A stretch of 64,000 nt of DNA from Owenia fusiformis. Its lineage: Eukaryota > Annelida > Polychaeta > Sabellida > Oweniidae. A program made the position numbers and the translations under genes. Location of the stretch: positions 17,465,754-17,529,753 of the forward strand of contig CAIIXF020000011.1 of NCBI GenBank assembly GCA_903813345.2, given 5' to 3'. Shown here in pieces: positions 31,101-55,100 of the stretch. Position 1 is the stretch's first letter, and each line of letters begins with the position of its first letter. The notes under the pieces are model-generated. The model did no database searches. It was not told the DNA's origin and was given only the letters and a program-made list of their open reading frames with translations.

Positions 31101-34100
31101 CTGTTGGTCAGCACACCATTCATCAAACTCTTTATCACTTCATCATCTAGATTCTAGACAGCTGTATATGTAGTATAAGCTCTCTTGAGAATTTAGAGAC
31201 TGCAGGCTGTGACTGTGTGGCGGCCCTTCTGGTTCTGGTTCAAACCCATAAAAGAGGTTTAATAGCCTAAATGTTCAGCATATGAAAAGTGGGTGTCGCC
31301 CATGACTAGTCTTTAACAACTATGAAAATCAAAGAGAAACCATCTGGAAATAAAGAGGAAAATTCTCCTCCTGTCCTATAGCCCTCACATAGTCTAGGCA
31401 CAGTATTTCAATTTAAATAATCAGAAACCAAAGCCTGAAGACTGGTACATTCTGTTGGTCAGCACACCATTCATAAAACTGTTTAGGCACTTGGTCAGCA
31501 CACCATTCATCAAACTGTTTAAGCACGTCATCATCTAGATTCTGGACAGTTGTATCTGTAGCATAGGTTTTCTTCAGGAGAATATAGAGACTCGACATAC
31601 ATGTACATAGAATAGTGGATACATGTTGTAGATCTGGGACATTTGTTGCTCGCTTTCTTCTTTCTTCTAAACAGGGGTGTGATATGTTATGAGCCTTTAA
31701 GAAGTCAAATTCTAAGATTAATTATAGCACCTAACATCAAAAGAGTATCTGGTCTTATCCAGAGAGCTGAATTACATTCATTTATTCAACCCATGATAGA
31801 GATTTAATAACCTAAATGTTCAAGATATGAAAAGTGGGCGTCGCCCATGATTAGTCTTTAACAATGATGAAAATTGATGATAAATCATCTTGTTATGTTT
31901 GCAAAATTTCTTTACCATGAAAATAGCACACTAAAACTGTGGTATGACCATATTCAAAGAAATATTTTTATGAAAAAAATATTCCTATAGCTCCCCACCC
32001 CCACGGGATTTGGTGGGAGGGGGTACTTATTATTTTTTGATCATTCTAGTGGACCACAAAAATGGCTCTGGCTCTTAAATCAAAGGGAAAGGTATTCTGA
32101 TGATATGTGGAAAGTTTCATGCTTCGTTCCATGAACGAACTATTTGCCTGTTTTCTTGCACTATTGATCTCGCTAAGTAGCAATACAGAGAATATAGAAT
32201 ATTTCCGATGGATTATCTCCTAAGTAAAATGTGTTGGCTTAAGATCACACGATAAAAACGTTATAGAATGATTTGAAGTTCGTCTCGTTCCAATACAGAA
32301 TTTCTCGAGCAGAATTTATCCTGTATTGCACTTCAAATCATTCAATAACTTATATTATCGTATGATCTGTAAAATGAAGCCCTCTGATTGGTCAGTTCTT
32401 GTGCTGTACCAATCTGTATTGCTACTGAGATTGTCCGCGTTGATCATCTCTGTCGCAATACAGAAAATATTGGTACGGAGGAGACAATCTCAGTAGCAAT
32501 ACAGAGGATAACACGATAAAAACGTTATTGAATGATTTGAAGTGCAATACAGGATATATTCTGTCTCGATATTCTGTATTGGCACTCGACTTCGTCTCGT
32601 TCCAATACGGAATTTCTCGAACAGAATATATCCTGTATTGCACTTCAAATCATTCAATAACTTATAGTATCATGCATTGTTTCATCCTATAAAGGCAGTT
32701 GTAAACTTACATTTGATGTATGGAAAAATGTATTCCCTCAATTCTACCCCCACCCATGTACACATCTACCACTTGACTAAATCTCCAATGTGGAGGTTTA
32801 ATTCAAAATGTCCCTACTTATTCGATAGGAAAACAGATATAAATTAATCATGGTTTAATCAGAATGCAATAACCTGGGGAGATTATACAGAGTACAGACT
32901 TAGCTAAGCCATCATTTAAGACATTTTGTTTTCCTAAACATGATGAAGTATATAAACAGCTAGTTGGTAGAAAAATTCAAAGGATATTTTTCAAAAGAGT
33001 ATTTTAATTTGTAGCACCCCAACAATACATTATGCTATATACATGTAATTACTTGTGATCTTTGTATTTAGTGGTTGAACAATAAATGATAAAATGACCA
33101 GTTATACTTATATACTTCTTAAACATGTTCCTCAGGTTGGATTATCAAATCACAAAAATATTTTTTCTTCTTTTCACAATATTGTTTTTATTTAATTGTT
33201 TTGTAGCGCTTCAGTTCAGTTTTTATACAGTTGAAAAAGGATCCAGACAGGATCCGAAACGTTCTGTTTAGTAAAATAAAGGTTGTAAAAAGAAGAAAAA
33301 ATATTTTTGTGTTTTGTTATACTTATATAATTCACAATTAGTACTTTATGTGAGAAAATACACACCTGACGCTGTAGGTCCTTTTTAGTTTTTTCATTTT
33401 TCTCTAGATTTTCTCTACATATATCAATAGATTCCTCTAGCTCATCACGCTCTTTGGCAGTCTTAGAATAAGTCTGTTCCAATTTCTGATGGGATTTGGT
33501 TAAATCTGAAATCAAAGAAGAAATCATATCAGAAAATATCCTCATTTGAAATTTGACAATTTAACAAATATATTGTATTTCATATTAGATTAATGTAAAA
33601 CTATATTGCCATGCAGAACTCGATCTGGTTGCATATGTGACAACCTACCCTGTAGTTTTGAGTCCGATTCTTTCAGATTTCTTGAGAGAGATTTCCTTTC
33701 ATCTTCTAACTCTGATAATTGCTGGCAAGCCCTGGAAACATATAAACCAATGTTCAAGGTAATATATAGCAACAATAGTAATGAATTTTATAACATACCC
33801 AATATGTAACACTAATCCTGCTTGACCAGTGCAAATTATTATTTCCGTTTGTAAGTGAAAAACCGGATGTCAATTTTAACTATTGGCCCCTGACGTCAAA
33901 ATTGCAGTTTCTACTACCCTGAGCATTGTCACTGTGCAGTCACAAGTACAAATCAACTCAGACTTGAGTATGTGAAATGGTTTTAACTTGGCATATTTTC
34001 CATTTTTAGAACATCAGTGCATTTGGTATTTTCTGAACATTTGGAAAATACCACAGTTTAACAAGTTGTACTGTTAACTGATATAAGTTTCTTTTTTACT

Positions 34101-37100
34101 GTCATCAAGTCATTCACAGTTTGCATAGACTTTAAATGCAAGCCATGAAAATACTGAACATATGCAGTTTCTCAAAAAGAGAACTTCTCGATATTAATGG
34201 GACGGTGGCTAAATCAAAATCTCACGACTTCTTGGTTGTGGGATAACATTGAACAGGTTCACAGTCGTGTTTTTGGGTCACATATTGAATATATGAACGT
34301 GTTTTCCCCTTCATACGCATCCAATCACTTACACATCATGCTGTTGTTTCAGAGTCTCATTGTGACGTCTTAACATCTCATGCATCTCTGACATAGTCGT
34401 ATGCTCCTGTTTCAGTGCTGCTAAGGCCTTCTGGGTAGTTTCTAATCTCTGGGACTGTTCGTTGTAGACCTGCGTCAAATCTTTGTGTTCATCAGCAATG
34501 GCATCCAATCTAGAATAAAGTTATCATTAAGAGACAACAAAAAATCAAGGTTGAGTGACAAAATATCTAAATGACATATCTAAATACTTCCAATATTTTA
34601 TTTATTTTCTGTTTCTGATATTTATACTGTTTTCAACAAGACAAATAAAATCATTAATTAAAAAATCTCAATGACAATTTACAGTGTATATATTAAACAA
34701 TATGGCTTCCTTATTCATTTTCCAAATTATCTGGAAAGAGTTAATCTAAAGGTGACATTTTTATACATCAAAATAGAGAAAACAAATACAGAGGATAGGA
34801 CTCTAGCATTATAAGCACAATCACAGAGATAATGTTAGCCATATAGATGCTTTCACATTTGGAGAGGATTTTATTTGGTTTGATCTGATTGCACTGACCT
34901 CTGGTTGTCTTGTATAAGTTGCTCCATCTCAATCTGTAGCTGCTCTCTGTCCAGTCTCATTTCATTCACCTGATCTCTCAGCTCCTCACATGACTTCTCT
35001 GACTCTAGGAGGAGTGAATGTAACTTGTGGAGCTAGAATGATATAATAAATAGAGTAACTAAGTCGTAATGTAAATATACTTAGCAAGTATGTCCCTATC
35101 ATTGAATATATGCCTCTGTGTGCAAGTGAAATTTGGAAGAAATGAAACATGACGTCATAAGAATGTAATACCTATCTAATATGTGCTTACTATTATTATG
35201 ATGGAGCATTTATAATTACCCCCCAAGAGGAAAAGTGGAAAAGAAAGCAAGAAAATTAGTAGTTGGTAGATTTTTTTATATTATTTCATATTACTTATCC
35301 GAAAGGCATTTTTAGTACAATAAAGCATTGAAATATATATATTCATGAATAATTTGTCTACAGGATAGGCCTATCCATAATTACTGCATGTTTCTTCTGA
35401 CCCGATCCGAAATAACCCGACCCGCACACTTTTTGTCTGGCCCGACCCGAAAGATATTCGAGCCGTGACACCCCTAATATTTACCTCTGCTTCTGTCTCA
35501 GCTTTCCGGCATCTAAACTGGGCTATCAGTCTGTCTGCTTGCTGTAAGGCCAGGGCTTTAGTGTCTAGTAGGTCTTGTAGATGGTTCTCTTTTGTCTAGA
35601 AACAGAAATATTACATTTACAATACAGTCTGCAAAAGTTAAGTTAAGACATTAGCAGTCTTTCTGATTTTTCAGAAAAACTATGTGGATTCTCTAATAAA
35701 GTTTTCTAGATCATTTGGCGCATAATCTAATTGTTTTATCAAAATTAAGATCTTTTGGATTAAAACATACCATAGAAACATACAATAATGAACAAACATA
35801 CAAACACCATAATGTACAAACATATTATAATGTACAAACATACAATAATGTACATTACATAAAATAAAAATAAATAATAATAAAAATATAAAAATGATAG
35901 CCCTGGGACCCATGTTTTCAGAGTCAATGAATAAGAAAATGTTAAAATATACAAGAATAACTTATCAGATAGTGCAAGTTTAGCATATCTATAGATATCA
36001 ATGTGTTGCATGATGAAAATAGATATATGTCATCACTGATAGTGACATATTTATTTTTCAATAAATTACTTGATTTATGTAGGTCTTTGATAGAAAAATA
36101 TTGTAACACCAAACAGATCCCTGAATCACACCATGATTAATAATGAAGGATGATTGAATGAGACACTATGTTGGTGTTCTGTCATATAACTTTTATACCA
36201 CGTTACCACTATTGCACAGTTAATTTCATAGTTTGAAAGTTTATCAAGCTTAAATAAGCTTACCTGTAAAGACTGCAACCTGTGCTCATATACAGATATA
36301 ATCTCAGAAGCTCTTGCATCCTTAATATCCTTAAATTAAATCAGCTTACCTGCAAAGATTGCAACCTGTGCTCATATACAGATATAATCTCAGAGGCTCT
36401 TGCATCCTTAATATCCTTAAATTGAATCAGCTTACCTGTAAAGACTGCAACCTGTGCTCATATACAGATATAATCTCAGAAGCTCTTGCATCCTTAATAT
36501 CCTTAAATTAAATCAGCTTACCTGTAAAGACTGTAGCCTGTGCTCATATACAGATATAATCTCAGAGGCTCTTGCATCCTTAATATCCTTAAATTGAATC
36601 AGCTTACCTGTAAAGACTGCAACCTGTGCTCATATACAGATATAATTTCAGAAGCTCTTGCATCCTTAATATCCTTAAATTAAACCAGCTTACCTGTAAA
36701 GACTGCAGCCTGTGCTCATATACAGATATAATCTCAGAGGCTCTTGCATCCTTAATATCCTTAAATTAAATCAGCTTACCTGTAAAGACTGCAACCTGTG
36801 CTCATATACAGATATAATCTCAGAAGCTCTTGCATCCTTAATATCCTTAAATTGAATCAGCTTACCTGTAAAGACTGCAACCTGTGCTCATATACAGATA
36901 TAATTTCAGAAGCTCTTGCATCCTTAATATCCTTAAATTAAACCAGCTTACCTGTAAAGACTGCAACCTGTGCTCATATACAGATATAATCTCAGAAGCT
37001 CTTGCATCCTTAATATCCTTAAATTAAATCAGCTTACCTGTAAAGACTGCAACCTGTGCTCATATACAGATATAATCTCAGAAGCTCTTGCATCCTTAAT

Positions 37101-40100
37101 ATCCTTAAATTGAATCAGCTTACCTGTAAAGACTGCAACCTGTGCTCATATACAGATATAATCTCAGAGGCTCTTGCATCCTTAATATCCTTAAATTGAA
37201 TCAGCTTACCTGTAAAGACTGTAACCTGTGCTCATATACAGATATAATTTCAGAAGCTCTTGCATCCTTAATATCCTTAAATTAAACCAGCTTACCTGTA
37301 AAGACTGCAGCCTGTGCTCATATACAGATATAATCTCAGAAGCTCTTGCATCCTTAATATCCTTAAATTAAACCAGCTTACCTGTAAAGACTGCAGCCTG
37401 TGCTCATATACAGATATAATCTCAGAAGCTCTTGCATCCTTAATATCCTTAAATTAAATCAGCTTACCTGTAAAGACTGCAACCTGTGCTCATATACAGA
37501 TATAATCTCAGAAGCTCTTGCATCCTTAATATCCTTAAATTAAATCAGCTTACCTGTAAAGACTGCAACCTGTGCTCATATACAGATATAATCTCAGAAG
37601 CTCTTGCATCCTTAATATCCTTAAATTAAATCAGCTTACCTGTAAAGACTGCAACCTGTGCTCATATACAGATATAATCTCAGAAGCTCTTGCATCCTTA
37701 ATATCCTTAAATAAATTAAATCAGCTTACCTGTAAAGACTGCAACCTGTGCTCATATACAGATATAATCTCAGAAGCTCTTGCATCCTTAATATCCTTAA
37801 ATAAATTAAATCAGCTTACCTGTAAAGACTGCAACCTGTGCTCATACACAGATATAATCTCAGAAGCTTTTGCATCATTAATATCCTTAAATTAAATCAG
37901 CTTACCTGTAAAGACTGCAGCCTGTGCTCATATACAGATATAATCTCAGAGGCTCTTGCATCCTTAATATCCTTAAATTGAATCAGCTTACCTGTAAAGA
38001 CTGCAACCTGTGCTCATATACAGATATAATCTCAGAAGCTCTTGCATCCTTAATATCCTTAAATTAAATCAGCTTACCTGTAAAGATTGCAGCCTGTGCT
38101 CATATACAGATATAATCTCAGAGGCTCTTGCATCCTTAATATCCTTAAATTGAATCAGATTACCTGCAAAGATTGCAACCTGTGCTCATATACAGATATA
38201 ATCTCAGAAGCTCTTGCATCCTTAATATCCTTAAATTGAATCAGCTTACCTGTAAAGAATGCAGCCTGTGCTCATATACAGATATAATCTCAGAAGCTCT
38301 TGCATCCTTAATATCCTTAAATAAATTAAATCAGCTTACCTGTAAAGACTGCAACCTGTGCTCATATACAGATATAATCTCAGAGGCTCTTGCATCCTTA
38401 ATATCCTTAAATTGAATCAGCTTACCTGTAAAGACTGCAACCTGTGCTCATACACAGATATAATCTCAGAAGCTCTTGCATCCTAATATCCTTAAATTAA
38501 ATCAGCTTACCTGTAAAGACTGCAGCCTGTGCTCATATACAGATATAATCTCAGAGGCTCTTGCATCCTTAATATCCTTAAATTAAATCAGCTTACCTGT
38601 AAAGACTGCAGCCTGTGCTCATATACAGATATAATCTCAGAGGCTCTTGCATCCTTAATATCCTTAAATTGAATCAGATTACCTGCAAAGATTGCAACCT
38701 GTGCTCATATACAGATATAATCTCAGAGGCTCTTGCATCCTTAATATCCTTAAATTGAATCAGCTTACCTGTAAAGACTGCAACCTGTGCTCATATACAG
38801 ATATAATTTCAGAAGCTCTTGCATCTTTAATATCCAAGCCTGATTGCATCTTCTTGATGAGCAACTGAACAGACTCATCCTGGTCAACAGCTTGCCTTTT
38901 AGTTCCCCTTGAGCCTGGTTTAACAGTGGGCACATTCTCCTTGTTGAATGTAGAGGTCTTGGTAGGGGCAATGGGGGCAGAGTAGGGGGAGTCAGATAAC
39001 CCACTACTGTTTGTGTTCAATTGCTTTCTTTCCTGCCAGGATTGATGTTTACTACTGTTGTTGCTGGAGATTGCCTCTCCGAGACTAAAACAGAATGGCT
39101 ACATGTCATAGATATTTAAAAAACGTGTAACAAGCATGCAAGATCAATAGCTACATCAGGGGTTTATAGCAGCAGGCAACTTTCACTGATTGTTTTCACA
39201 AAATCGCCTGCTGTTTTTAGGGACTTTTCAATGTTAAATTTATGATTTTCATTAATTTTGCATGTTGTTTTCATTCATTTAGCCTGTTGTGAAAAATTCT
39301 AGTGAAACCCCTGTATATGTACACGGATATTTAAAAAAATTGTAACATGCATGCCAGAAATACCTTTTCACAATTTTTCAACAAAGAACAAAATCAAAAA
39401 CTTTGTGTACATAACTATAAAGGATTCCTCCTTTGGTGTGAATATTACATTGTTATTCAGATGTGATTTGTATATGTGATAAATTACAATTGTGACAAAG
39501 TTAAAATTAAAAAACAACAACTAAATATCACTTAACTCAATATCACTTAACTAAATATAACTTACGTGACAGTTTGAAACTCTTCAAGTTGAGAGGCTGA
39601 CATGACCAGTCGTAATGACCTTTGAACTCGTTGTCTGGAGTCTGAGGTCATTCCGAAAGCAAGAAACGGTACGAGGCGGTCATCTTGTAACAACTTTGCT
39701 AATGGGGATGCCATGTTGGGGTCTAGCTTTTTAAGGGTCAACATCAACTCTAGTGTACATAAGACAACATCTACACCTTTGCAGCTGGAAAATATTGAAG
39801 ATTTCATAATTTTAAGATAATTGGACCACAATATAGCACTATTTTGATGGAAAATGGTTCAATTGGCTGTTTTTAATGTTTTGAACCATGTATTTTCCAT
39901 CAAAATGTCAATTGGTAATTTAATAATTATTATTATTATAAGTATTATTGTGGTACCATGGTTACATTCATAAACAAGGCATTAACATCCAAAATGTCAC
40001 CACCTGCCATTTGTTACAGATGCCAAACTTCGAACGCCAAATGCCAACCATTGAACACCATCCACAAAAAAGTTGGAGACTATAACAATATGTCAACACT

Positions 40101-43100
40101 TCTGGTGGTCATATGATCAAAATGAAGAGCTTGCTCATGACTCATCAGTTGAAATTATACTACAATTCAATGTTTTCTGATTAGAAAATTTTAAGGGCAC
40201 CCAAATTGTAAATGATTGCTCAGGACTAAATATTCCTAAGTATTGTTAAATGAGACATAATAGGACCACTGTACAAAATCAAAATGAACAAGTATATTAT
40301 AAAATTAACTATTCTCGAGGCATGAAAGGTATGTTTACTCATATTACTAATACAGTGTGACCAGAAAAAAGTGGACCATTGTTTTTTCACTGCTCATACC
40401 ATTAAGGCTCCCTTATCTGTCAAAAGGCTGCCCAGAATTTTTAGATCACTGCTGAATATCATTCAGTGTTCATCGCAACAGCTTTTCCCGTGTCGTCTCC
40501 AAAGAAATAAGGCCCAATTATGCCAAGCCTTATGAGAACAACCCAAGCTGTATATTTTATAGATTGCAATGGCCTTTGAAGCACTGGATCTGGGGGTCAT
40601 TAACAGAAATTTAGTAAAGTCACGAATTCGTAAATCAATTGTTGTAACCATGGATATAAAGGCGTCACAGTTAGAGAACAATGGGTTTTACGAATTCTTA
40701 ACTTTATGAAGCTTCTGTTAATGGCCCCCTGGGGGAGCTGGACCCCAATAAACAATAAGATTTGAATTTAGGTGATTTTGTAATTTAGGGATTTAGGTGG
40801 AAATGGTCCACTTTTTTCTGGTAACCCTGTAATATGTGCAATATCCAGAAAGATTGGTTAAAACCTGTTAAAATGGAAGACCTAGTGTCATTACTTAGTG
40901 AACACCCTGTATATAACATGTTCAGTACAATCTGTTCTTTGAATACATCTTAACAAGTTTTGTTCTTGAGACATGAAATTTGGTATGTTTGTATTCATTA
41001 TTACATCCCCAATAATAAATATATAATATAAAACATAATATTTCTCTTTGGCACTTGTGCATCCATATTATATCTCTAATAACACCTTTTAACATCAGTA
41101 TGAACATCATTATATACCGTTTTCGCCGTAATGAGCGCCCAGGGCGCTTTTGAAATTGAAATTCCCATTGTAACCCATTACAAAGAGCGCCCATAAAAAA
41201 TTGTCTCGCCCAGGAATTTGTCTTGCCAAAAATGCCTTATTTGCAACGAAAGTGACAGCAAATTTTTACAATAATGATATGTATCGTTATTGGAGAGAAT
41301 ATGGTAAAGATCGCTAAAATAAAGCAAGAATCTAACTATATTGACAGTGACTGAAGAACTCCACAGCAGAGCCCCTCGAGGTGAAGGAATTGTTTTCGCG
41401 ATTATCTTCAATATTTCCACTATACACTGGTAGATATCGATCTAAAGTTATACCTTGTTTTTTAATTTGATGACAGATCATCATTTTTCGTGTATAAGTC
41501 GAGGAAGTCGTTAAGAAACGAGAAAGTTCACGACCTTGGCGATCGCTAAGTTAGTAAAATGTCGAAACAAATCTCTGAAACGTGATCATTTCCTTCATTC
41601 ATAATGGACTATTTTAAATAATATTAGCTTAGTATGATGTGGGAAGCACCCACTGATAGATATTCATCGGGAGGATGCATCGATTTACAAAATGCATCAT
41701 GTTTTCTGCATTTTAGTGTAAGTACTCTATTATCACCCACTATATTTCTTCGCAAATTTGACTTTTTCTAATATATTGGTTAATACTTGGTCATTCCTCA
41801 ATATTTCTTGAACTCTGTGAAGCAGGGTAGGCGCTTATTAGGGGTGGGCCCTTAATACGGATTTTATGGTATGTCTAATTTTTATATCCCAGAAATAGCT
41901 TTTAAAAGCTAGCAATGCGGTAACTTGAAATATACATGGAGAACTTTTACTAGTTCATTTGGGTTAAATTCATGGCCATGTATAATTATTATATAATCCG
42001 CATCAGAAATTGATCTCCATAATCTAACAAATGAAATGGATTTCTTCAATTGGATTTCAAAAAGCGGCAACACTTAATAAGACGGGTTTTAAGATGATTT
42101 GATCAGATTAAAGTTGCAGCATTGTATGGTACAATATTAGACATTGTTAGGTATGCCAAATTGATTGTTATAGCATATCATGAACCTTTTCCTAACATTA
42201 CACGATTAAACCACAGAGTTACGGATTGTTAAATATGAAACCACAAATGTCTAGATAGGTTCAAGATCAAGAAAATTTATTGAAAAGTCCAATCAGGCTG
42301 CATAAACAAACCAAGAATACCCCTGTAATGTATGTTCAATTATAAGATATTATTAATTCATAGATGTCGCTCATAAATTGAATCTTGGGAAAAAGCACAT
42401 GTGTGCCATATAAGGCAAAATATATATACCACCATTGATTTAGACTGAAATGATGTCTGTGTTTGTTATTGACAAAACTTGTATATATTAGGCCTCCAAA
42501 CTTAACAATGGCGACGAGGATGGTGGCAAAACAAGTAAGAACAGTATAACAACAACGCAATGTGTGATATAAAGTATAAATAGACTGTAAAGTGGAAAAA
42601 TTTGAACTTTAATTGAGACTTCAAAAATTCTGGAAAAAACAATTTTCAAAATGCCTATAGGAAAAATTGGTGAATTCAACAGTGAGTTGGAGCCATTCGA
42701 AAATTACATAGAAAGGATTGAACAATATTTCATAGCAAATGACATTGAACAAGATAAACGTAAGTGTGTTTTCCTAGCAGCTTGTGGTGCAAAAACGTAT
42801 GACACATTGAAAAACTTATGTCTGCCAAACAAAGTTTCTGATGAAACTTTTGATGATATTAGCACAAAATTAAAGTTACACTTCAAACCAGAACCTCTGC
42901 TAATCTTTGAAAGATACAAATTTGGGAAAAGGACTCGACAACCCAATGAAAAGATATCAAACTTTGTCATAGATTTGAAAAAATTATCTTCAACCTGCAA
43001 ATTTGGGACATTTTTAGAGGATGCATTGTGTATGCAATTTGTTGTTGGACTAAATATTCCAAAAGCACAGAATCGACTAATCCAAGAATCGGAACTTACA

Positions 43101-46100
43101 TTTGCTAAAGCTATATCTATAGCACAAGCAGAGGAAAGTGCAACTGCTTCCTGCAAAGAAATTGACACTGAAACATCAACAAATGCATCCGTGAACCAGA
43201 TTCATAAACTAACTTGCTGGAGATGTGGCGGCGACCATAAGGCAAATATATGCCGTTACCGTTCAACTACTTGTCATAAGTGCAGTGAACTTGGACATCT
43301 GAAATCCCGCTGTGATGACGTTAGAAAATGGCGTGAGGCTAGGAAAGGGAAACCTAAGCCAAAATTCCGTAGAAAAGTTCATCGACAGAATCTTCTCGAA
43401 GAGGACGATGGGTCAGATGATGGTCTCCCGACATACTGCATATATAGACTGGGAACGATGAATCCTGACAATGTCAACAATCATGGCGTACATGCATTAA
43501 AGGATCAGGTAACTCAGTACAATGTCTCAATGTTTGTAGATGATAAACCATGTAATTTTGAGCTAGACACAGCTGCATCAGTTTCTGTCATTGGTGAATC
43601 ATTGTATAGGTCCAAATTAGCCCACATTCCATTGAAACCTCCAAAAGTCAAGCTAAAATCCTATTGTGGTAACTTGTTGGATCTCTTGGGTGAAATTCAA
43701 GTCCCTGTAACTTACAACAATGTTACCAAGACACTGCCTTTGATAGTTGCTCAGGGTAATAAGCCTGCATTACTTGGAAGAAATTGGCTTTCTCAGATCA
43801 AATTAGACTGGGGGCAAATTTTTGCAGTGCAAGACAATACTAGACTTGACAACCTACTGACGAAATATCACAATGTTTTCTCTGAGGAAAGGGGTGACAT
43901 TCAAGGCTTTCAAGCTGAAGTTCAAATTCCAGAAAACTCAACTCCAATTTTCAAAAAAGCATATCCAGTTCCATACCCTATTCAAGACAAAGTTAAAGCT
44001 CAATTAGAGAAAGGGGTGGAGTCAGGAATCTTTAAGAAAGTTGAAAAAAGTTCATGGGCAAGTCCACAAGTAACAGTCATAAAAGAAAACGGGGGTCTTA
44101 GACTCTGTGGGGATTACAAGGTAACGGTCAATACAGTTTTAGAACCGGACCCGTACCCACTTCCGACTTTAGAACGATTGTTTTCACAGGTAAGTAACGC
44201 ACGTTACTATTCTAAAATTGATTTGGCGGATGCGTTTCAACAGCTAAGGCTTAGTGAAAAATCGAAGGAACTACTTACGGTCAATACTATGATTGGTCTG
44301 ATTCGATATGAACGCATGCCATACGGTATCAAAACCGCACCTCAAATTTTCCAATCCGTAATGGATGAAATCTTGCGAGATCTGGATGTTTGTTGTTACA
44401 TAGATGACATTCTAGTATATTCCGAGACGGAGGAGGAACACTATGGTAAGTTAGAGCAGGTTTTGCAACGGTTGAATAAACACAACGTTCGTGTGCGTAT
44501 CGCGAAATGCTCATTTCTCAAACCATCAGTAGAATATTTGGGACACGTATTGGATGGTGATGGAATCCATCCAAATAAGAAAAACATTGAGGCTCTTTTG
44601 AACGTGTCTACTCCCAGCAATGTTTCGGAACTCAAGGCTTTTCTAGGCATGATAAATTACTATGGGCGGTTCATTCAAAATCTCTCATCTGTGTTGTATC
44701 CATTGAACAACCTTTTGAGGAAAGATGTAAAATGGCGATGGGGAGATGAAGAAAAACTAGCCTTTGAATCTGCAAAAAATTCAGTCAAAGAAGACAGTTG
44801 TCTGACACCTTATGATCCGCAGAAACCAATCAAAGTTGCCGCAGACGCGTCCGGTGTAGGAATAGGCGCGGTCATTTCGCACATAATGGAGGATGGTAGT
44901 GAACGTCCGGTGCATTTCGCCTCGCGTAGTCTCAACAAAGCGGAGAAAAATTACGCGCAAATTGAGAAGGAGGCTCTATCTCTCATTTATGCAGTGAAGA
45001 AATTTCACATGTATATTTATGGGAAAAAGTTCACTTTAGTGACTGATCACAAACCTTTAGTCACAATTTTGGGTTCAAAAACAGGTATTCCTACTTTAGC
45101 GGCTGCACGAATGCAACGGTGGAGTCTCATTTTGTCCGCTTACGATTATAACGTCGAATATCGCAAATCTGCTGAGCATTCTAATGCTGACGGTTTAAGT
45201 CGTTTACCGGATATGTCCGCTAAAGCATGCGAAGAAGATGCAGAATTACCTCTGCACATGTTGTCGTTCACAGATCAGTTACCAATCACAGCGACTGATA
45301 TCAAAGAACGTACTCGGAAAAACCCAGTTTTGTCTAAGGTTTATGAATACACTCTCAATGGCTGGCCTAATCAGATAAATGACAATGAATTGAAACCGTA
45401 TTTCCGCCGAAGAAATGAGCTTTCCACAGACCAAGGATGCGTATTGTGGGGATTACGTGTTGTCATTCCACCCATTTATCGCGATCAATTACTCGCAGAA
45501 CTACACGAAGAGCATCATGGGATTGTACGTATGAAATCTCTTGCGCGATGCTATCTTTGGTGGCCAGGCCTTGACTCTCAGATAGAAGATATAGTACAAA
45601 GCTGTAACACCTGTCAGGCATCCAGAAATATGCCTGCAGAAGCACCATTAATGCCATGGTCTTTTCCCAGTCGGGTTTGGCAACGCGAACATATAGACTT
45701 TGCGGAGAAAGACAATGAGCGATTTCTGATACTCATCGATGCGTACTCAAAATGGATCGAAGTTTTTCCTATGCAAAGCACAACTGCTTCTAAAACAATT
45801 GATAAACTGCGGTCATGTTTCGCCCAGTTCGGTTTACCGGAACAGTGTGTCTCAGATAACGGTCCACAATTTACATCCGAGGAATTTCAGAAATTCATGT
45901 CTCATAATGGCATTAAGCACACATTTAGCCCTCCTTATCACCCAAGCACGAATGGCGCGGCTGAGCGGTCGGTACAAATCATCAAAAATGCTCTATTCAA
46001 ACATGTTCTTGACAAAAAGAAAGGTACGCTATCTCAGAGATTGGCAAATTTCCTGTTAATGTATCGGAATACACCACACTCAACTACAGGAGTTAGTCCA

Positions 46101-49100
46101 GCGGAATTGTTCCTAAAACGTCAGTTGCGTACTCGTTTCACTCTTTTGAAGCCAAATTTGTCCAACCGAGTTGAGAATAAACAACAAAGTCAAGCACTTC
46201 AAAAGAACCGTTCAATTGACCGATCATTTAAAATTCATGATCATGTACGTGTCAAAAATTTCCGTGGGGGGAAGGAGAAGTGGCTTTTGGGAGTTATTGT
46301 GAAAGTCTGTGGTCCTCGTACATATGTGGTAAAGGTGGGAAACAATTCACGTTTTGTTCATGTTGACCATCTAATAGGGGCTCAAGGGGAAAGTCAAACA
46401 AATGAATCCTCTGATCTCTTTGAAAACATGCCAGATATACAGACTGGACCAGACAAGCTTCAGACAAGTTCAGACAAACTACAAAGCCCATACAAACTAC
46501 CAAGTCCGGACAAACACCAAAGTTCAGACATACAAAGTCCTGACATAATTCATAGTCCTGACTTACAAAGACCAAGTGAGAAATCACAAAGAAAATCTAC
46601 AGGTATTACTCCAAGTAAAAATACACCTGTTTCTGTCACTCCTAGCAAGCAATTGCCAAGTGAAATTTCACAGGATACACAAGTGACAAGTCCAAAGAGC
46701 AAGCCAAAAGGTAACACATTGGATGTCCCTGTCTCTTTGCCTGATACCTCACCCCGGTATCCAACCAGGTCCCGAAAACCTCCCGATAGATTGAAGTTTT
46801 AAAGCAGCTTTATCTCAGCTCAGAAATAATGCTTTATTATCTTGTTTATGAGATTACTGAGTAAACTGCATCTGTACATGTATGTATTCCTGGAAATGAC
46901 AATATATCATAGTCAATGAGTAAATATTGACTAAATCAATATTAATGAAATGATATAGTTTTATTTAGAGAATTAACATATTGACTTTCTCTCATTTGAT
47001 TAAGTAAAGACAATCAATGCACTTTAAGACATTTAAAGGCTTCACTCCCATTTGAACTTTTGATGAAACAAGAAGTTTCATATAGGGGAGGAGAAGATGT
47101 AATGTATGTTCAATTATAAGATATTATTAATTCATAGATGTCGCTCATAAATTGAATCTTGGGAAAAAGCACATGTGTGCCATATAAGGCAAAATATATA
47201 TACCACCATTGATTTAGACTGAAATGATGTCTGTGTTTGTTATTGACAAAACTTGTATATATTAGGCCTCCAAACTTAACAACCCCCAAACCTATGATAC
47301 AACATACAGAAATGACAGTATTTGGACGCTCATATTGGGAAAAAGCCTGTTTCTCATAAAAAATTGTAAAAGAAGCAGGGGCCCATAGCGTAAATTAACC
47401 ACATGAACCCATTTTAAATAAATACAAGGCATTAACATGCAAAATGTCACCACCTGCCATTACAGATGCAAAACTCCAAACACCAACCACTGAACACCAT
47501 CCACAAAAATGCTTGGGACAAAAACAATATGTCACCACTTGTGGTGGTGATATAGTGAGTCATGACAAAAGTTACGATAAATGACATCTTTTGATTCATC
47601 TAAAAATTGTTGATGAATGGATGGACTGTTATCATAATACCAAAACATGGAATTTATTCAGACTTAACTAAAGTCATTCCAGAATTCAACTAACTAAGCA
47701 AATCATTACTAAGAAACAGCTCCAGTGGTAATGGATTGTGATAATGGTTTCTGATTGTTTCTTTGTATGTCAGATCATTGGAGTTTGTTACCTTATGAAT
47801 GGGTGTACTCTAGTTCATGCTTTTTTGGTCTTTTCATTTATAGGCGAGTGGGAGCAGGGTCAAATATGGAACTTTAATTAAGATTGACTGCAACCGCTCA
47901 AAACATGTTGTACTTTCATAATATTGATATGTAGATTCCAAATATGACAATGAAAAGTTTTGAAAAATGGCCCGTTACCATGGAAACGGATGCAAAGTGC
48001 CACGCCCACTTTTCATTAGCCATAAAGAATGATAAACACAATATTGGCCATAACTTTTTTAATTTTTAACTATTTTTAATGATATTGGTACCATATTGAA
48101 GGTAATAAAATGTCCCGTCACCCTATGTATTATTTAGTCGGTTTCAATTGTTCACCCGGCAATTATGACGTCATAATATCCTTAAATTCCCATTTTAAGG
48201 TATATTTAACGAATTGCTCCACATCAATGTCAATTAAATACCTTAGTGAATATTCTTATCAAATAAAATGAGATTATTTTTGTTCACGTTAATGTGCTCT
48301 TTCCAGTGATACCTTTGATGTTACATAACACTAATACACTTTTGTTCTAGAGCCTCTTAAACCCATGGCTACACTATGGTAAAATGCTGAATCCATATTT
48401 AATCGCATTTTACTACAATTTACTGATTCTCTGTGTGTGTATGTCTATGCCTGTTTGCTACCAAACCATTTAGACGTTAGAAAACAAAACGTGGCGCATA
48501 TGTCCAGTATAGTACCCCCCTCGAATATAAAGTGGTTAAGAACTTATGATGTCATCTTGTTGCCTAGCAACCACTTAGGAATGGATTAAAACGCCTTATT
48601 ATGGCCATTTTGCCATAGTTTCATCATTGTATAGGCACTAAAACATCTAGATATGGAGAAAGAATCACCCCTCAGCATTGACCCTACAGTATATCACTGT
48701 CTTTGTACACTGGTTATTGTGATGTCATCTGTGTTGCCTAGAAACCACATAGAAATGTTCTAAAGTTTGCCAAGTTCATTCAGTATTCTTCCATTTACTC
48801 ACAGGTTATGTTATCAAAACACTCATTTAAGATTAAGACACTAGTATTATAATCTAAGAAATACCAATGTGTGTGTTCAAAACGGGCACTCTGCAACAAA
48901 ATAAAATGTACCTGCCTAGGAACCACCTAAAAACGGTCAAAAGCTAATTTACAATTTATGCAACCACAAAACACATCTGAGCTTCATAAATACAATGTAC
49001 AGGGCATCAAATAAGTCAGTTTTCCATCCCCCATAATTTTTTAATTTAGAACTAACATAGGTTTATCAAAAATCATCTTAAGGGGAATTCAATTTGCTGA

Positions 49101-52100: not shown

Positions 52101-55100
52101 GGTTCCCAAGTTGTGATTGAAACAGCTTGAAACCCCTCCAAATGAAAGGTGTCAAGAAGAGCAGTCTTGTCTGGAGAGAAAAGTGAGATGCTCCTGTTTT
52201 AAAGTGGATGACACACTAAAAGTGGGCCAAAATGAGAGAGCTAAGACGACTCCTAGTGGAGAGACCAAAGTATTTCCAAAAGAAATGAATCCAGATTGGG
52301 TGAATCCAGACTAAGACCATATGTACTGACTTCTTCTAGGTCTGAGTTACCAGAAAAATTACGAGGTAGCAATCTGAGGCACTTCGATCAGGGTGTTGTC
52401 AGGACAATATCTGAATTTTAGGGGCAAATATACAACTTTGACATCTTACGTACAATTTGTGTCACACAAGACCAGTATATTCTGTTGAAATAGACCCAAT
52501 TGTCCCGACAACACCCTCATTAAATTGCTTCAGATCACTACCTATACATTGAGACCGATGAGGCTTCATCATTTGAGACTGAATACTCTATCTTTTATGA
52601 GTACTGGTATCTACAACTAATTTTAATGTTATGAGTATTGGCTATAAATTTTTCAATTTTTTCTTCAACATGTATTGTAATGACTTCAGTATGAATGAAA
52701 TGTCCCTTGGTGTTCTGGCCCTGGATTATGATATTGGCTCTCGATTGGAGGGGGGAGGGGGATGTGAGACATTGTTTCTTTTCACGTTAGATCATGGTTT
52801 TGGAATATATAGGGTCTACTTTTCTTATGACAGATTTACACTTACAGTTTGCTTTTCTTGTCGGGTTTCCTTAAAGTTTTTAGTCACCCTTCCCTTTTGG
52901 CATTTGTGCTTATATATTCAACAGACATTCCTGGTATGAGAGGAGATCCTGTGACTCACTGTAAGAGAGAATTGAATTAAAGTGAATCCCAAATGATGTA
53001 TTAAAGGTTTGGGAACTCTGAGGTCAAATGTTATAAAGATGCGAGAGTAATAGTACAGCGCTCAGATGACAATCAAGGACAGGCTATAAAGGCTAAATTT
53101 GCTGAGAAAGCATTGGGCATGTATGAGATGGCTCTAGAGTCAGCACAATTTGGAAGGAAAACCAAGATTAAACCAACCCCATTGTTTGATGGGAACACAC
53201 TGTGGTTAGACTTCAAAGTATACTTCAAGAATTGCATGGAGAGCAAACAGAGAAATGATGAAGAGAAGAGGCAGGCCTTACTAACCAGTTGATGGAAGAT
53301 ATTAAGCAGCTAGTGCAGGAGCTGGAAGAGGGGTATGCCTATGATGACCTGGTGGAGGCTTTAACATATCTCGAGATGCCTTGCTCTTCACAAGATAGAC
53401 TAGCGAGGTAGAGCTCTGGGAATGCCATAACTGATGATGATGAGCAGCAGTACACAGAAGAGATCCAAAGTCTCTTGATCAGGCCATGGAAGTGGCCCAG
53501 AGGGAGGAAGCGTTTCAGGAATCTGAATGGATCCAGGAAGGACTCAAGCTAATACAATGGGATCATCATATCTCCTTTTCTTCTAGTGATCATGTGGAGG
53601 AAAACCTCCTTAAATGGTTGAAGAAATAAAGACAGAGATGAAGAGGAATATAAAAGAGGCTGTCAAACGTTTCAAGAAGAGAGCTCTGTGCACATTGTGG
53701 CATTAATTGTAGGAGTTGTTGTGAGAAGGTACATGTTTTGTAGAGCTGTCAATTGGTATGTTTTGATTGATCAGCCTAAGGGCACATGTCTTATGTTTGC
53801 CTAAAGCCCCAAAAGAGGTGAGAAGAGAGAAAAGCTCCCCGAGAGTAAGAGTTCTATATCCAGTAACTCAACAATTCATCCTATACAATTTCTTAATCTG
53901 GATAGAAGCATGGTTACCAACTCTTGCAAGGCACAAACAGTGAGGAGAATAGTTGAAACCTAGCGAGAGAAATGTCCTTGTTCAAGCTGATTGTTCTGTT
54001 GCTGCTTTTGGCTCCTGTTTATGGAGATGGCATGAGATGGGAGAATAACCTTGACGCAGATGGTGATTGCTGACATTAACAGCATTAACAGAGAAGGAAT
54101 TCTGAGAACAGATTTCATCAGAGCTAGCGTAGCTGTGATCCACTATGGCGCTGTGCTGATGTGTTTTCCTGAACCAGATGAGTTATAAAATGAAGAGCTT
54201 TGAGAGCTCAAAAGCAGGCAAAGGAGATCTAACTCTACTATCATGGCACCATAATACACATCGTTTATATCGTTAATATAAGATGGTTAAAAACCAAGAA
54301 AGTTAGTCAAAATAGGATTCATCGCCTAAAAAGTACATGGTAACCATGGGAACGAGTGTTTATGGTATGCTTACCAACATGAAGACTTTAATTTATCAGT
54401 ATATCTAGATGGTTGACATACTCTTCTTTGTATTGACATTACATATACCTACTTTTAACCATTATTAAGACGTGAGCCCATTGAAACAATCTTATCATAT
54501 TGTTAATATATGGAATATTGATCCCAAAGCAAGGGTTATGACGTCATAATGTATATGTAAATATAAAGCTAATTAACATACTTTATGCAGGATGTGAAAG
54601 AACTTATTATTACGCTTCTTCTGATACCAATAATACTAAGATTGCTTAAAAACAAAGAAAGTTACAGTCCAAAATGTTTTTATTGACTAAATTGCTGAAA
54701 AGTTCATGGTAACCATGGCAACGAGTTTTATGTTATTCTAACCAACATGCAGCCTTCAATATCAGTATATCCGAAAAGCCGACATACTCTTGCTTGTATT
54801 GGCACTGCATTTACCTACTTTTATCCATTTTCAAGAAGTTTAACTAATAAAACACTGTTATTTTATTGTAAATATCTGGAAAATCGAGGCCAAAAGAAGG
54901 GTTATGACATCATAATGGATACGCAAATGAGCCAATTAACATAATTTATGCTTACGGTGAAAGAACTTATTATTTCGCTTCTTCTGATACCAATAATGCT
55001 AAGATTGCTCAAAAACAAAGAAAGTTACAGTCCAAAAAGTATTTATTGCCTAAATTCCTGAAAAGTTCACAGTAACCATGGAAACGAGATTTTATGATAT

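Follow-up and report, generated by a model that had tools for sequence, protein, structure and literature searches.

We analysed a 64-kb window (the whole stretch of DNA considered here) of the Owenia fusiformis genome, located on contig CAIIXF020000011.1 (C11) of one assembly of 498 Mb. On its minus strand, this window carries exons of the CIP2A gene, and the 3' end of one of them, exon B, is present together with its 5' splice site in 30 tandem copies. Exon A matches PDB entry 5ufl (Protein CIP2A) with E = 2.1e-12 and the Pfam family PF21044 (CIP2A_N) with E = 2.5e-13. With the joined open reading frame (ORF), these matches bear out the gene identity and strand that a first-pass annotation had proposed. 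Parts 113-171, 196-257, 280-354, and 454-526 of the CIP2A_N profile lie collinearly on the minus strand of C11, as befits a CIP2A gene, and a protein-homologue search with exon A returned zero candidates. Exon B by itself has no match in Pfam; it is assigned to CIP2A because exons A-G share one open frame, and joining them with one array copy yields a single ORF. Exon B is bounded by the acceptor ttctgttttag/TCT and the donor CAG/gtaagc (slashes mark exon boundaries), and its 3' end reads ...EHRLQSLQ in phase 0. Exons C onward we take to encode a coiled coil, and the Pfam hits of exons E and G, all below threshold, agree with this. The intron between exons B and C spans 3173 nt, of which 2485 nt are copies 2-30 and their spacers.

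Tandem Repeats Finder reports the array with a period of 86, 29.9 copies, and a 95% match at 36250-38835. Each 86-bp unit consists of 66 nt of exon end (22 codons), which read DIKDARASEIISVYEHRLQSLQ, and a 20-nt spacer, and this composition, put forward by the first-pass annotation, was borne out when all 30 copies were parsed. The exonic part is 66 nt long in 29/30 copies, copy 5 having a 1-base deletion, and the 29 inter-copy spacers (consensus GTAAGCTGATTTAATTTAAG) measure 20 nt in 26 cases and 24 nt in three. All 29 spacers start with GT and end with AG. The former feature agrees with the first-pass description of the spacer, and of ~29 extra donors behind the true one; the latter had gone unremarked there. 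Each copy is therefore a GT-AG-bounded 22-codon block in phase 0-0. With a unit of minisatellite size that includes both an exon end and its donor, and a first copy that forms part of a coding exon, the array has the anatomy of an exon-intron-boundary minisatellite. The GTAAGCTTATTTAAGCTTGA stretch that follows copy 30 is probably the ancestral start of the intron.

Table 1. Features of the CIP2A locus and of other donor-bearing or related arrays (positions in the window unless a contig is given)
Feature	Position	Strand	Remarks
CIP2A exon A	39566..39784	-	End of CIP2A N-terminal domain; boundaries by joined ORF
CIP2A exon B	38769..39084	-	316 nt; last 66 nt are array copy 1
Array copy 1	38769..38834	-	Coding; completes exon B
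First 20-nt spacer	38749..38768	-	True donor GT at 38768-38767; AG at spacer end
Array copies 2-30	36264..38748	-	In intron B-C; 66 nt per copy but 65 nt in copy 5, spacers 20/24 nt
Start of intron remnant past copy 30	36244..36263	-	GTAAGCTTATTTAAGCTTGA, unlike the spacers
CIP2A exon C	35485..35595	-	Begins TKENHLQDLLDTKALAL... (TKENHLQDLL); presumed normal splice partner of exon B
Stretch with CIP2A exons D, E, F, G	33366..35032	-	Stop-free joined ORF
CIP2A_N profile part 280-354	58058-57711	-	25.7 bits, slightly below the 26.3 cut-off
CIP2A_N profile part 196-257	C11:17544146	-	Match has one internal stop
CIP2A_N profile part 113-171	C11:17581181	-	
L043	G000:C1:6972500-6982400		Rieske-type ferredoxin exon, then 38-bp donor array; ~21 copies in first block, further blocks after
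L050	G000:C2:377800-380000		Peptidase M24 exon, then 30-bp donor array; extends beyond the stretch, listed matches to C2:383262
L048	G000:C2:4093000-4096000		Laid out much like the CIP2A array, likewise with an 86-bp unit; AG-to-donor block of 72 nt (24 codons), by eye
L047	G000:C1:60206600-60208800		90-bp repeat open in one frame, 30-residue protein repeat; consensus unit includes CAGGTAAG

A two-unit query found at least 16 matches in the assembly, all within the CIP2A array, and the body of exon B found at least one. In this one genome search, whose counts are lower bounds, the array unit was found nowhere else, and no retrocopy with a spliced junction was seen, the exon body having given a single match. 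The copy number is that of the assembled sequence, and the real DNA might in principle have no array or a far shorter one. However, the 30 copies comprise 21 different, intermingled types of unit, pairs among copies 2-29 differ at 3.2 places on average, and several more arrays of the same design exist in the genome. Neighbouring copies are no more alike than expected: the mean number of differences at lag 1 in copies 2-29 is 3.15, against 3.19 in shuffles (P = 0.44). Lag 7 alone stands out among the ten lags tested (P = 0.009, uncorrected). The number of unit types and this lack of excess likeness argue against assembler stutter, and we regard an artefact of assembly as very unlikely indeed. 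Since adjacent copies resemble each other no more than shuffled ones, growth of the array by slippage between neighbours was also rejected.

Splice sites and reading frames of the copies

Donor strength was assessed as the computed pairing energy with the 5' end of U1. The native donors of exons A-G score -5.7, -11.0, -6.9, -7.7, -6.2, -9.7, and -9.6 kcal/mol, which makes that of exon B the strongest of the seven. In the array, 28/30 copies have the donor CAG/GTAAGC at -11.0 kcal/mol, and copies 2 and 8 have CAG/GTAATC at -8.1 kcal/mol. Hence, 27/29 extra donors equal the true donor in U1 pairing, whereas none of 160 background intronic GTs reaches -11.0 kcal/mol. Acceptors, scored by a simple matrix, present the opposite picture. 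Native CIP2A acceptors score 1.4 to 6.5, while the 29 unit acceptors have a median of -2.95 and a maximum of 0.35. Decoy intronic AGs (n = 110) have a median of -1.88, and 65% of them score at or above the unit median. The copies thus have excellent donors and poor acceptors.

The consequences for the reading frame differ sharply between donors. Of the 30 donors, donor 1 alone keeps the frame open into exon C, and we infer from this that most functional transcripts use it. Splicing from exon B at donor 2 or later, with the spacers retained, leads to an in-frame Val-Ser-stop. There is a second conceivable outcome, in which copies serve as mini-exons: donor n would be joined to the AG that precedes copy n+2 or one further on, with an intron of at least 105 nt, so that DIKDARASEIISVYEHRLQSLQ blocks would be added just ahead of the part encoded by exon C, and purifying selection would keep them synonymous. 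Skipping one copy indeed gives introns of 105-114 nt, and 28/29 extra copies fit singly in frame between an AG and a GT, as tandem cassette exons would, copy 5 being the one that breaks the frame. Their acceptors, however, are at decoy level. Moreover, the 20-nt spacers are far shorter than known animal introns, and splicing-out of the spacers themselves was rejected for this reason. The alternative lengths foreseen in the first-pass annotation are accordingly lost for donors 2-30 when spacers are kept, and conceivable in frame for 28/29 copies by mini-exon inclusion.

Sequence variation in CIP2A and in sister arrays

Across all 30 copies, 8 of the 11 distinct exonic substitutions are synonymous (P = 0.0027, with transitions and transversions matched); if copy 1 is set aside, the figure for copies 2-30 is 7/10 (P = 0.0074). 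Substitutions common to at least two copies are synonymous without exception (7/7, P = 3.4e-4), in a division into shared and private changes that was chosen after the data had been seen. By contrast, of the changes private to one of copies 2-30, 0/3 are synonymous, and there is in addition one private frameshift; amino-acid changes are present in copies 7 and 12. Copy 1 carries a private synonymous change, G9A, and has G27A and the spacer change T12C in common with array copies. This synonymous pattern hints that the copies are translated or, alternatively, that they exchange sequence with copy 1, which is coding.

For comparison, we searched the genome for three CAGGTRAG motifs at the regular spacing N{76,82}. 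This pattern has 229 matches, against 45 for its mirror image, while a scrambled motif, CAGTGRAG, has 106, against 46 for its own mirror. The CAGGTRAG matches listed fall into 8 arrays on C1, C2, and C3 as far as 22.97 Mb; among the CAGTGRAG matches listed, there is 1 array in the same stretch and 7 overall. The enrichment is a rough one: matches overlap, the array counts are of listed matches only, and real donors are commoner than the scrambled word anyway. Ten arrays (L043-L052) were then read, 8 listed by the N{76,82} search and 4 by a wider motif search, two being common to both. The totals of the wider search, at least 1000 and at least 100, do not enter the enrichment estimate. Seven of these ten donor-bearing arrays (L043, L045, L046, L048, L049, L050, and L052) begin at an exon-like end, i.e. 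an open frame after a possible acceptor AG, as judged by eye. L044 (29-bp), L047 (90-bp), and L051 (21-bp) were excluded from this count, and L047 is not clearly an exon boundary.

Support for the seven exons varies. Pfam matches reach the donor in two, L043 (Rieske_4, 3.4e-8) and L050 (Peptidase_M24, 2.7e-7). The exon of L046 has a weak match (MBG_3, 0.0087), and its candidate acceptor has a poor pyrimidine tract. The calls for L045, L048, L049, and L052 come from the open frame and the AG. The exons of L045, L048, and L049 have no match in Pfam or PDB, and a suspected likeness between the L052 exon and an aminotransferase found no support in either. The 72-nt block of L048 could possibly also be used as an in-frame mini-exon. 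The CIP2A array therefore seems not to be a one-off, similar donor arrays recurring in the genome.

Synonymous changes were counted in six sister arrays, L043 being omitted because its exonic part is only ~6 nt. Over-diverged copies were dropped, which left 66/74 in L046, 6/6 in L048, 14/15 in L049, 17/38 in L050, 10/10 in L052, and 17/17 in L045; reading phases were taken from the open frames, with Pfam backing in L050. In these arrays, 6/30 shared changes are synonymous, with 7.7 expected, as are 8/36 private changes, with 9.1 expected; within L048, both shared changes are (2/2). The six sister arrays thus look neutral, which would mean that coding-like constraint is not a general outcome of seeding at an exon end. 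The difference from the shared changes in CIP2A is marked (Fisher P = 1.7e-4), and by this comparison the CIP2A copies look unusually well preserved as protein code.

These patterns bear on two alternatives. Use of the copies as mini-exons would account for the excess of synonymous changes and for the contrast with the neutral sister arrays; it fits poorly with the private changes and, as noted above, with the acceptors and spacer lengths, and we think it unlikely. A still stronger version, in which a donor-seeded minisatellite has been turned into a translated mini-exon array, with numbers of 22-residue blocks that vary by isoform and allele and are kept by selection, is in our estimation marginally less probable again. 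Alternatively, the array might be a neutral passenger, donor 1 always winning, the other donors being inert, and the synonymous pattern reflecting chance or early history. The post hoc split lends this some credit, the undivided copies 2-30 giving the weaker P value cited above, and the recurrence of similar-looking arrays indicates that they are tolerated. Nevertheless, neither the contrast with the six sister arrays nor the match in strength between most extra donors and the true one is what would be expected of an inert passenger, and we consider this quite improbable.

The CIP2A gene contains other repeats. A Ty3/gypsy-like retrotransposon, assigned by eye, lies inside it at 42324-47282 (+), with an open frame of 1398 codons (42606-46802) and flanking repeats of 185 bp that are 100% identical, so the insertion is probably young. 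A 363-bp tandem repeat with four copies is found at 54325-55770. In all, the 64-kb window has nine tandem arrays with a period of at least 20 and at least 3 copies, the CIP2A array included, and such minisatellite richness may explain why donor arrays recur.

Possible origin and consequences of the CIP2A array

The reading that we favour, and hold to be somewhat more probable than its alternatives combined, is that of a mostly passive intronic array, seeded across a donor, with latent donor competition and exchange with copy 1. It is preferred because the acceptors of the copies do not appear to surpass random AGs. The seed would have been a tandem duplication that spanned the 5' splice site of exon B, and the array would then have grown to 30 copies. 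Most functional transcripts would use donor 1, so that copies 2-30 would be removed as part of the intron. The other 29 donors would be latent competitors of the true one, and their use would yield either a CIP2A ending in Val-Ser-stop, without the part from exons C onward, or an mRNA prone to nonsense-mediated decay. Since spare donors would divert splicing to truncated or decaying products, copy number could tune the productive output of CIP2A. The synonymous bias would result from exchange between array copies and copy 1, which is always coding.

Several points weigh against this. Of the seven exonic variants that recur between copies, copy 1 today has just one. The sister arrays, which were seeded alike, have no synonymous bias, indicating that exchange with a coding copy usually leaves none. 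In addition, among duplicated equal 5' splice sites the intron-proximal one is often preferred, which predicts poor use of donor 1; a literature search for this intron-proximal preference among duplicated sites turned up nothing.

Thirty near-identical strong donors, the first of which is the real one, amount to a natural experiment on two questions: which of several equal 5' splice sites the spliceosome selects, and whether the output of a gene is tuned by copy number. With seven further arrays at exon-like donors, the question of donor choice becomes approachable across genes in one animal. Were the CIP2A copies translated, they would stand out from the neutral donor arrays of the same genome and would exemplify a route from minisatellite to repeat protein via splicing.

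Comparison with known boundary repeats

Going by its title, Turri et al. 1995 describes a minisatellite that gives multiple splice donors, as in the CIP2A array; the gene is said to be 6-16/IFI6 and the unit short. A study of boundary repeats in human segmental duplications, considered below, is reportedly by De Grassi and Ciccarelli. Arrays of this sort are already known in human genes, as illustrated by the 31-bp variable number tandem repeat (VNTR) of CBS. This repeat, c.1444_1467+7(16_21), has 16-21 copies with single-base differences between units (PMC2630376), and it has been placed at exon 13-intron 13 (PMC1395315). As in CIP2A, the tandem unit comprises an exon end and an intron start. 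According to its name, however, the CBS unit is 24+7 nt, compared with 66+20 in CIP2A, and the part of PMC5188458 available to us terms it non-coding boundary sequence, unlike the coding-frame unit of CIP2A. More CBS repeats are reported there to go with lower CBS activity. The portions of these descriptions that we could consult do not mention a spacer with GT and AG like that of CIP2A.

In human segmental duplications, internal tandem repeats at exon-intron boundaries are reported to change splicing, with 27 intron modifications, and can generate novel introns (PMC2812944). They have units of 30 bp on average, ~4 copies, and occur in recent paralogues, whereas in CIP2A a single locus was found, with 30 x 86 bp. 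A review of how introns are gained when segments bearing splice sites are duplicated in tandem cites multiple duplicates of 24 bp in fission yeast (PMC4974935). The duplicated segment there, as in CIP2A, brings both GT and AG and makes intron-like spacers; the CIP2A array differs in its spacers of 20-24 nt, weak acceptors, and many copies. In Caenorhabditis elegans, an intronic minisatellite has been tied to alternative splicing (PMC4039745).

Finally, a truncated CIP2A would have a human counterpart. The NOCIVA isoform consists of CIP2A residues 1-545 followed by a new C-terminal tail (PMC9974998, PMC8698559); it contains exons 1-13 (PMC8698559), and the C-terminal tail of human CIP2A is called unstructured (PMC9974998). 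Use of donors 2-30 would similarly give a C-terminally cut CIP2A. NOCIVA residue 545 corresponds to the end of exon A (the 5ufl match ends at 544), whereas the stop brought by the CIP2A array would lie one exon later and would arise from tandem donors.

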